From assembly GCF_026409565.1 (NCBI RefSeq), contig NZ_CP112881.1, positions 2,031,501 to 2,095,500 on the forward strand: DNA of 64,000 nucleotides, given 5' to 3'. Made by a program: the position numbers and the translations under genes. The stretch comes from Sneathiella aquimaris. GTDB taxonomy: Bacteria; Pseudomonadota; Alphaproteobacteria; Sneathiellales; Sneathiellaceae. Position 1 is the first letter of the stretch; every line of letters starts with the position of its first letter. The notes below the pieces were generated by a model. That model was not told where the DNA came from. It worked only from the letters and a program-made list of their open reading frames with translations, and ran no database searches. This document shows, piece by piece, positions 50,254 through 52,244 of the stretch.

Positions 50254-50454
50254 TTCCTCTCCCTAAGGGCCTGTGGCCATTTAGTAGACGGCTCACTTAT
50301 ACTCAAGTTTTAGAGATTGATAAAGCCGTAGCATAGTTAATTATGAATAAAGTATGACAGAAACAAGGTTGATGGTTGCAACAGTGGCGTGTGAGCACCA
50401 TAATCGCCGAAATTGTCACCCTGATTATGAACTGCAGAGTAAAGGTTGAGTTAC

Positions 50455-51432
50455 ATGAACCTCACAATAAATGGCGAAAAGAGAGTCTATGACCGCTCTT
50501 TGTCCATTGACGAGCTGTTGAATGACCTTGAATTGGATGGTCAGAAAGTAGCGTTAGAACGAAATCTGGAAATTGTCCCTAAATCGAGCTACAGCACAAC
50601 GATGCTGGAAGAGGGCGACAAACTTGAAATAGTTCATTTTATTGGAGGTGGTTCCGTGGATACGGATGATGTTTTTGAAGTCGCAGGCCGTAAGTTAAAC
50701 TCCCGGTTAATTGTAGGCACAGGAAAATATAAAGATTTTGAAGAAACCAAACTGGCGATCGAGGCATCGGGCGCTGAAATGGTCACCGTTGCTGTTCGGC
50801 GTGTGAATATTACAGATCCCAAACAGCCAATGCTGGTCGATTATGTGGATCCGAAAAAATATATTTATCTGCCAAACACGGCATTTTGCTATACGGCAGA
50901 TGAAGCCCTTCGTACCTTACGCCTCGCACGGGAAGCGGGAGGCTGGGATCTGGTGAAACTGGAAGTCCTCGGTCACGAAAAAACACTCTATCCCAATATG
51001 CCCGAAACCCTGAAAGCCGCACAAACCCTTATAGATGAAGGGTTTAAGGTTATGGTTTATTGTTCAGATGACCCTATTCAATGCCAGATGCTGGAAGACA
51101 TGGGCTGCGTGGCCATTATGCCTTTGGGGGCACCTATCGGCTCTGGATTGGGTATTCAGAACCCTGTCGGGATCGGCATTATCAAAGATCAGGCGAAAGT
51201 GCCGGTGATCGTTGATGCAGGGGTAGGAACTGCATCAGATGCGACAATTGCAATGGAACTGGGATGTGACGGCGTGCTTATGAATTCTGCCATTGCACAT
51301 GCAAAAAATCCGATCATCATGGCCTCAGCAATGAAAGACGCTGTAACAGCAGGTCGCAAATCCTTCCTGGCAGGCCGGATGCCGGTCAAAAAATATGCGG
51401 ATCCTAGTTCTCCTCTCGCAGGATTGATATAG
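50455..51432 (+). CDS. thiSG: fused sulfur carrier ThiS / thiazole synthase ThiG
   Basis: Bifunctional protein for the thiazole half of thiamine. Residues 1-66 are ThiS ([13 protein letters not shown], ending FIGGG); 68-325 are ThiG with the Schiff-base Lys in [12 protein letters not shown], the phosphate site [13 protein letters not shown] and GVGTASDA. The ATG is preferred over a TTG nine bases upstream, because AAAGG fits it. Natural ThiS needs a free C-terminal Gly-Gly for adenylation and thiocarboxylation. Fusions of this type are known in databases as a provisional family. Here GGAGGT within the Gly codons, six bases before an in-frame GTG (50656), could start separate ThiG. No TPP riboswitch seen upstream. 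Confidence 0.93.
50644..50658 (+). promoter_or_regulatory. internal ribosome site and GTG at the ThiS-ThiG junction
   Basis: GGAGGT encoded by the ThiS Gly-Gly codons, six bases, then GTG in frame. This is ideal spacing for initiation and would yield a 258-aa free ThiG. Seen in sequence; use is inferred. Confidence 0.45.
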
Positions 51433-51497
51433 TTTCGCCTTACTCTTGACGGATTGATACGGTCTCCTCATCTTTATATTAATGGATGAGGAGACGA

Positions 51498-52244
51498 ATG
51501 AAACGCACGCTCATTAAAATTCTGGCAGGGTTCGTTCTGGTTTTATTTCCATTTCTGACCCCCCAGTTCATTTCGTTCGCCAGCGAATATGGTGTTGAAA
51601 CCAAACACTGGTCAAACGCGCGGTATGATCGCACCTATCTTTCCCCTGATCCCCAGATCATCAAGGAAGCCGTTGTTCAGGTTATGGCCGCTCGCACATG
51701 GGGATGGCGTGGCAGTTTCGCCGTTCATACATGGATATCCGTCAAAGCCGCAAATGCCCCCGGCTTTACACGCTATGAAGTCATCGGCTGGCGGCACACC
51801 CCACTTACCATTCGCATTGGTGTGCCTGATAATTACTGGGCCGGTAACCGTCCGTTTCTTATAACGGATATCAGGGGCCAAAAGGCGGCAGACATCATTG
51901 AAAAACTGGATAAGGTCGTTGATCGGTATCCCTATAAAGACAGCTATAAGGTCTGGCCCGGGCCCAATTCCAATACGTTTATCGCTTATATCAGCCGCGA
52001 AATCCCGGAGTTGGAGCTAGACCTTCCCCCAACTGCAATCGGAAAAGACTATCTGGTGGGCGATGGGGTGATCGGGAAAGCCGTCAGCGGACGAGGGGTG
52101 CAGTTTTCGGCCGGTGGGTATGGCGGATTTGCGTTCAGTCCGGTAGAAGGGCTCGAATTTCATCTTCTGGGATTAACAACGGGATTTGATTATGGGGATA
52201 TGGCGTTAAAGTTACCGGGGTTTGGACGGGTGCCCTTGTTTTGA
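51498..52244 (+). CDS. DUF3750 domain-containing protein
   Basis: 248-aa protein of the DUF3750 family with one N-terminal hydrophobic segment (TLIKILAGFVLVLFPFLTPQFI), a signal or anchor. The domain has HWSNARYDRTYLSPDP, the strongly conserved-looking RTWGWRGSFAVHTWISVKAANAPGFTRYEVIGWR, and WPGPNSNTFIAYISREIPEL, a pattern with His, Trp and Asn that suggests a possible enzyme or binding fold. Function is not known. The ATG chosen has GAGGAG upstream; another lies four codons earlier. It converges with the marR gene 18 nt away. Confidence 0.82.
   Translation: MKRTLIKILAGFVLVLFPFLTPQFISFASEYGVETKHWSNARYDRTYLSPDPQIIKEAVVQVMAARTWGWRGSFAVHTWISVKAANAPGFTRYEVIGWRHTPLTIRIGVPDNYWAGNRPFLITDIRGQKAADIIEKLDKVVDRYPYKDSYKVWPGPNSNTFIAYISREIPELELDLPPTAIGKDYLVGDGVIGKAVSGRGVQFSAGGYGGFAFSPVEGLEFHLLGLTTGFDYGDMALKLPGFGRVPLF

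Follow-up and report, generated by a model that had tools for sequence, protein, structure and literature searches.

A ThiS–ThiG fusion in Sneathiella aquimaris with an invariant glycine junction, and a JAMM metallopeptidase as the candidate for its proposed processing

The window analysed here, a 64,000-nucleotide stretch of the Sneathiella aquimaris chromosome, contains a gene in which the sulfur carrier ThiS is joined to the thiazole synthase ThiG through three glycines that are invariant among related fusions, and comparative evidence makes it likely that the product is a proprotein, which would be opened by a JAMM metallopeptidase cutting after Gly66 to give free ThiS and ThiG. The first-pass annotation of this DNA had suggested that ribosomes also bind at the glycine codons to translate free ThiG, a role for which we found support in separate thiS and thiG genes with close ends but not in fusions.

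The fused gene and its glycine junction

A single open reading frame on the forward strand (50455-51432, 325 aa plus the stop codon at 51430-51432) starts at ATG 50455, with an in-frame TTG upstream at 50446, and joins ThiS to ThiG. Pfam ThiS (PF02597) matches residues 4-66 with 44.3 bits (cut-off 22.5) and TIGR01683 (ThiS) scores 73.1 bits, above its curated threshold of 37.45, while Pfam ThiG (PF05690) matches residues 76-320 with 355.6 bits, above its cut-off, and spans profile positions 2-247 of 247, that is, the whole domain. The predicted structure has a pLDDT of 85, with values below 50 at residues 64-69, 309-313 and 321-325, the latter two being C-terminal stretches of ThiG. Its best Foldseek matches are solved ThiG structures, including the ThiG chain of the ThiG–ThiS complex 1tyg, which we take to be from Bacillus; that complex has the same domains, but they come from two genes and the ThiS tail is free from the start. 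The established tail chemistry of separate ThiS is expected to apply to fused ThiS as well. The host chromosome is a single contig of 3.94 Mb, the closest named relatives of the protein come from Sneathiella and Sneathiellales assemblies (83-90% identity), and in databases such fusions presumably go under names like 'bifunctional sulfur carrier protein/thiazole synthase'. The features are as follows.

50441-50445, + strand: AAAGG, 9 nt ahead of ATG 50455, likely Shine-Dalgarno sequence of the fused gene (judged from the sequence)
50455-51432, + strand: fused thiS-thiG gene, 325 aa and stop (open reading frame, Pfam)
50455-50652, + strand: sulfur carrier part (ThiS, residues 1-66), with Gly-Gly-Gly at its end (PF02597, TIGR01683)
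50644-50652, + strand: GGA GGT GGT, Gly64-66, invariant GGG and putative processing site, also a Shine-Dalgarno-like GGAGG (151/151 distinct fusions; free ThiS of most relatives ends there)
Between 50652 and 50653, + strand: predicted cut after Gly66 and ahead of Ser67
50653-50679, + strand: beginning of the hypervariable linker (GGG-to-SRL distance 16 residues here, 13-32 across fusions; low pLDDT)
50656-50658, + strand: GTG (Val68), the free-ThiG start proposed at first, not conserved (comparison of fusions)
50680-51414, + strand: ThiG (thiazole synthase) domain, residues 76-320 (PF05690; Foldseek)

The annotated arrangement was confirmed in that the junction glycines are coded by GGAGGT, which ends six bases before an in-frame GTG whose use as a start would yield a 258-aa ThiG; the glycines it described are present, but they number three and not two. 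A terminator-like hairpin followed by T-rich DNA (50653-50666) spans the linker and the GTG, and it is probably due to chance, since two such sites were found in the region against 1.2 expected. No TPP riboswitch or other Rfam RNA reached the gathering score within the window. The next gene downstream on the same strand (51486-52244) encodes a DUF3750 protein (162.8 bits).

Sulfur-carrier chemistry demands a free C-terminal glycine. As encoded, the fusion lacks a free C-terminal Gly-Gly, as Gly64-66 run on into ThiG, and solely after cleavage would it have one. For MoaD, the same requirement is stated in the available text of PMC4326299. The one-contig genome contains two ThiS-family genes, the fusion and an unfused MoaD gene adjoining that of MoaE; a search of this genome for a second free ThiS returned only the MoaD, and one ThiF-family E1 was found. 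Therefore, if the known route is used, free ThiS must derive from the fusion.

Gly-Gly-Gly stands at the junction in all 151 distinct fusions (168 sequences in total), a set whose filter demanded the GGG and SRL motifs, dropped just four sequences (L170, L171, L172 and L175, each split by a stop) and excluded matches not beginning within the first three residues. Open frames of 465-845 aa considered as ThiO-ThiS-ThiG triple fusions were rejected, given that by eye their upstream part looks unassigned and is followed by an ordinary ThiS start. Near the end of the ThiS part, the three glycines are invariant in 151/151 fusions, as are an Asp, a Glu and a Val; per-site entropy is 0 at GGG, rises at once to 2.6-3.6 bits after the third glycine, and positions are not constrained again until close to the ThiG core. 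Among free ThiS proteins, a first batch of 61 loci, 10 of which were omitted for having no JAMM call or no ThiS match, gave 42 of 51 ending exactly at GGG (34/36 in JAMM-negative and 8/15 in JAMM-positive genomes). Because the GGG is invariant, coincides with the end of free ThiS and is followed by hypervariable sequence, and because JAMM accompanies the fusion, proteolytic release fits better than internal initiation; of the options first listed for this gene, cleavage after glycine is the one that the comparison favours.

ThiC (HMP synthase, PF01964) had no match in this one-contig genome, rated 100% complete, and TMP-TENI (ThiE-type) proteins were found with 198 bits and, for the second, 73 bits. 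Given the absent ThiC match and the presence of TMP-TENI proteins, thiazole may be made while the pyrimidine half of thiamin is imported. Fourteen of 25 Sneathiellales genomes, incomplete ones among them, show no ThiSG fusion and give at best weak matches near 1e-4, so thiazole synthesis seems to be patchy within one genus.

Glycine codons and the translation of ThiG

If the glycine codons of the fusions were kept as a ribosome binding site, so that full-length protein and free ThiG are made together, both GGAGG and a start codon should be retained across fused thiSG genes. The first glycine codon of the 151 distinct fusions is GGC in 92, GGT in 46, GGG in 10 and GGA in 3, where 13.5 GGA would be expected for an average glycine site. 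GGAGG within the glycine codons was detected in 17/151 fusions against 25.0 expected from each gene's own glycine codons (P(<=17) 0.03), and an in-frame ATG, GTG or TTG lies in the linker of 63% of fusions and of 64% in shuffles. Junctions combining a start with a Shine-Dalgarno duplex of -8 kcal/mol or below number 15/151, compared with 14.3 +- 2.9 in synonymous shuffles; the counts were 42 against 36.1 at -5 and 68 against 61.2 at -3. At -4 there were 55 fusions against 44.7, a value reached by 2/200 shuffles and the sole excess among six thresholds, by which there may be a slight surplus of weak Shine-Dalgarno sites at fusion junctions.

In the present gene the duplex energy of the GGAGGT site is -10.6 kcal/mol, and GGAGG with an in-frame start 4-12 nt 3' of it occurs in 9/151 fusions, including this one and its close relatives L003 and L084. 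Within the window, GGAGG followed after 5-9 bases by ATG or GTG, in any frame and on both strands, occurs 15 times against 15.5 in shuffles. Since this pattern is at shuffle frequency in the window and Shine-Dalgarno-plus-start sites in fusions are near background, the site in the present gene is probably for the most part a coincidence at this locus. The fusions thus show no conserved internal start of translation, with Shine-Dalgarno sequence and start beyond what the protein imposes, and neither the synonymous shuffles nor per-gene glycine codon use supports a ribosome binding site kept there. The result comes close to what the first-pass annotation had named as contrary to its proposal, namely full-length protein only, together with random glycine codons and no start codon at this place.

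In separate thiS and thiG genes the glycine codons behave otherwise. A rule-based count of all 77 scorable loci among 101 unfused ones showed that, where thiG starts at most 10 nt from the thiS stop, GGAGG is present in the last glycine codons of 22/46 pairs with 9.1 expected, and none of 100,000 draws was as high. By distance of the thiG start, the counts were 18/33 (7.7 expected) at up to 6 nt, 22/48 (9.8) at up to 15 nt and 23/55 (11.3) at up to 20 nt, falling to 1/22 (4.5) when the start was more than 20 nt away or not found; a smaller set of 27 close pairs, chosen by eye and unevenly, gave 15 with 7.6 expected. These counts support the glycine codons doubling as a Shine-Dalgarno sequence in unfused pairs whose ends lie close together, and this clear signal means that the test applied to fusions has power. 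The idea that the same bases serve tail chemistry and translation holds for the separate close-ended genes and is not supported for the fusions as a class, where, as far as sequence comparison can tell, the dual role is relaxed.

Terasakiella-like genomes contain both arrangements. In L017 and L020 the genes are fused (junction GGA GGA TCA CAA GAC GTG), and in Terasakiella brassicae (L030) they form a split pair (GGA GGA TGT TAA GAC GTG), in which ThiS ends in GGG-Cys, ThiG presumably starts at that GTG, and JAMM is retained. The two junctions differ by the stop codon and neighbouring bases; on the ThiG tree the three loci are one clade (support 0.98), with L030 beside L017 (0.70).

The JAMM peptidase and its co-occurrence with the fusion

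The genome has one clear Prok-JAB gene, of 141 aa, plus a weak second match below cut-off. The clear gene is located outside the window (G000:C1:3074235-3074552), scores 71.6 bits with PF14464 (Prok-JAB) and encodes an intact metal motif, Glu plus HTHx7SxxD (E..HTHPEGNARPSKTD), in agreement with what we take to be the JAMM/MPN+ motif, Glu plus H-S/T-H-x7-S-x2-D. Its product is predicted to be a metal-dependent peptidase and is the best candidate for the proposed ThiSG cut. The best NCBIfam model is that of the haloarchaeal desampylase (NF041370, 68.2 bits against a cut-off of 130), which places the protein as a relative of that enzyme outside the equivalog. An RluD homologue was detected (tblastn, 1e-5) at this locus and at all 42 other alphaproteobacterial JAMM loci inspected, 12 from the order survey (L145 and L148 without a found fusion), 10 from named fused genomes and 20 from fused genomes of the class survey; at L254 the JAMM motif is present solely in a longer open reading frame. 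At the loci examined, including its own, the JAMM gene is apart from the thi genes. In the conserved neighbourhood (L136 and the 42 others) rluD is often joined by a threonine aldolase-like gene, and most Sneathiellales also have a DUF6476-like gene there.

Four surveys indicated that the fusion is nearly always accompanied by JAMM, which can also occur without it. Across 385 genomes of the class, with a PF14464 match of at least 43 bits counted as positive, JAMM is present in 68/73 fused genomes, in 11/120 unfused genomes with ThiG and in 7/192 without clear ThiG, the latter defined by a best E above 1e-40 and taking in G249, a contaminated assembly with a ThiG fragment and JAMM. In this survey G363 was scored as fused although its gene (L177) is cut by a contig end; like the fused genomes G075, G246, G286 and G334, it showed no JAMM match. 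In five JAMM-positive unfused genomes (G139, G235, G292, G301 and G386) JAMM is not beside rluD. Among 25 Sneathiellales genomes JAMM was found in 11/11 fused and in 2/14 others, namely G007, a one-contig Sneathiella genome 99% complete with JAMM and without ThiSG, and G014, which is 70% complete. In named genomes (49 of 80 loci) it accompanies 42/47 fusions and the split pair L030, and the split pair L080 is without it. In the phylum survey (398 genomes), whose counts, like those by family, were made by reading tables, JAMM occurs in 31/34 of the fusion-bearing genomes from other classes, and the three without it are 57-76% complete; G658 (L353) was scored as having no JAMM match. JAMM was also found in most genomes of family f188, which has only unfused thiG among its listed matches, and in those sampled from f207 and f208; in family f13, JAMM is present in 11/11 fused and 5/7 unfused genomes. 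As JAMM also occurs apart from fusions, it may have further functions.

To take relatedness into account, a Pagel-type model was fitted to 155 ThiG tips (96 fused with JAMM, 4 fused without, 15 unfused with and 40 unfused without), and the dependent model beat the independent one with a likelihood ratio of 54.1 (53.1 in a repeat fit), compared with 0.5-13.0 in 24 null simulations. The tips were hand-chosen, so that only L017, L020, L030, L056 and L080 represent the 49 named genomes and remote unfused ThiG genes were omitted; the fit allows for JAMM being falsely scored as absent in 4% of cases and uses the ThiG gene tree rooted at its midpoint, and three of its eight rates ran to the limit. 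G139 was coded JAMM-negative because its JAMM is not beside rluD. In the fitted model the fused-without-JAMM state is left very fast, with rates at the limit, and by parsimony the fusion changes 19 times on the ThiG tree and JAMM 18 times.

Some free ThiS proteins extend beyond GGG. Among JAMM-positive unfused genomes there are tails of Cys (L030), ALS (L184) and NNA (L304), and one JAMM-positive family (L320-L323) has SLF, AR, AV and ASSPNIS; three JAMM-negative genomes have a single residue, Met (L185), Cys (L300) or Phe (L345). The tails of L184, L185, L300, L304 and L345 may stem from gene overlap, since there the thiG-frame start overlaps the thiS stop. Tailed ThiS was found in 7/15 JAMM-positive and 2/36 JAMM-negative genomes of the first batch (51 genomes), with no excess in a second (38 genomes; 0/19 against 1/19), which pooled gives 7/34 against 3/55 (p 0.04). 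Tails of at least two residues occur in 6/34 against 0/55 (p 0.002) and come from three lineages only; both p values are uncorrected for relatedness, and 15 of the 34 JAMM-positive genomes belong to the one family f188. The tails are suggestive of JAMM trimming a masked ThiS C terminus.

Proposed maturation of ThiS and its implications

While joined to ThiG by its C terminus, ThiS could be neither adenylated nor thiocarboxylated, and for this reason we propose that a protease cuts after Gly66. The cut would give ThiS the -Gly-Gly-Gly end that most unfused relatives encode directly and would release ThiG with a few extra, probably disordered residues at its N terminus; the 141-aa JAMM (Prok-JAB) metallopeptidase encoded beside rluD would be its most plausible agent, and the single ThiF-family E1 would then activate both the fusion-derived ThiS and free MoaD.

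Similar processing has been described in the molybdopterin pathway. In MoaX, a MoaD-MoaE fusion of Mycobacterium tuberculosis, cleavage between Gly82 and Ser83 is required, according to the available text of PMC4326299, and there too a ubiquitin-like sulfur carrier is N-terminal to the enzyme that it feeds, with Gly-Gly at the join; ThiSG differs in belonging to thiamin synthesis, in having three glycines and in being widespread in Alphaproteobacteria, and that text names no protease for MoaX. For another MoaD-MoaE fusion, DR2607 of Deinococcus radiodurans, cleavage by DRJAMM is reported in the part of PMC8832034 that cites Yang 2018, a case in which a JAMM/MPN+ metallopeptidase opens a linear sulfur-carrier fusion, although in another pathway; for ThiSG the evidence is comparative. 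ThiSG has the same layout, with the carrier ahead of its partner and GGG at the join in 151/151 fusions, and by analogy it would be cut after the last glycine and need that cut. The ThiS–ThiG fusion itself is previously noted and widespread: the accessible text of Iyer and colleagues 2006 (PMC1779556) describes this architecture 'in several cases', suggests JAB cleavage of fused ThiS or MoaD and finds JAB genes absent from thiamin and Moco operons, just as JAMM in Sneathiella is unlinked to thi genes, but contains no co-occurrence survey for the ThiS–ThiG fusion. A 2007 paper (PMC1949818) treats, in the text seen, the freeing of C termini by proteolysis as primarily eukaryotic, and the text seen of PMC12452182 merely names a Bacillota operon. 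In the open-access literature we recognised by title or abstract no study of ThiS–ThiG processing or test of the 2006 JAB proposal, in a search where 'ThiS' also matches 'this'.

It is conceivable, but in our view unlikely, that another protease cuts after GGG and that JAMM tracks the fusion because each is ancient and the two are often lost at the same time. This would agree with JAMM being syntenic with rluD and apart from the thi genes, with PMC4326299 naming no protease for MoaX, and with the 13 fused genomes in three surveys that have no detected JAMM (5/73, 5/47 and 3/34; G286 among them is rated 100% complete). However, these 13 are multi-contig or metagenome assemblies, where genes can be missed, the correlation of JAMM with the fusion survives the phylogenetic test, and Sneathiellales without the fusion are mostly without JAMM. 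More doubtful still is internal initiation, with ribosomes binding GGAGGT and starting free ThiG at GTG 50656 beside the full-length fusion: the good spacing and strong duplex in the present gene, the equivalent arrangement in a few other fusions and the use of glycine codons by separate close-ended genes speak for it, yet across fusions such sites are about as frequent as background and are not conserved, their pattern in the window is at chance frequency, and the product would be ThiG, leaving the missing part, free ThiS, unaccounted for. Internal initiation may nevertheless take place in the Sneathiella strain as a by-product.

The least probable reading, to which we give almost no weight, is that the fusion works uncut by a sulfur route without ThiS thiocarboxylate, or that programmed frameshifting at the join sets ThiS free. 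Full-length fused frames do persist in more than one class, but a tail without a function should hardly keep GGG invariant. Frameshift release was rejected, given that stops in the shifted frames past GGG are no more frequent than in synonymous shuffles (54 against 57.6 for -1 stops within 6 codons, 14 against 11.9 for +1) and a six-G run occurs in just 2/151 fusions.

Proteolytic maturation by JAMM, the reading we prefer, can be extended, tentatively and with more doubt than confidence, to the proposal that across much of Pseudomonadota ThiS is, or ancestrally was, made with a masked C terminus, either by fusion to ThiG or by a short tail past GGG. JAMM, linked to rluD in Alphaproteobacteria, might then mature ThiS much as deubiquitinases process ubiquitin precursors. 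Thiazole synthesis would be under control at this step, and it would mainly be lineages with a thiS stop directly after GGG that could lose the protease. The comparison of separate and fused genes indicates that the codons of a glycine tail can also act in ribosome binding and that this role is lost on fusion. If the proposed cleavage is true, a widespread bacterial JAMM peptidase gains a concrete candidate substrate, many environmental bacteria would use ubiquitin-precursor-style processing in a core vitamin pathway, and such bacteria without JAMM should require thiazole.
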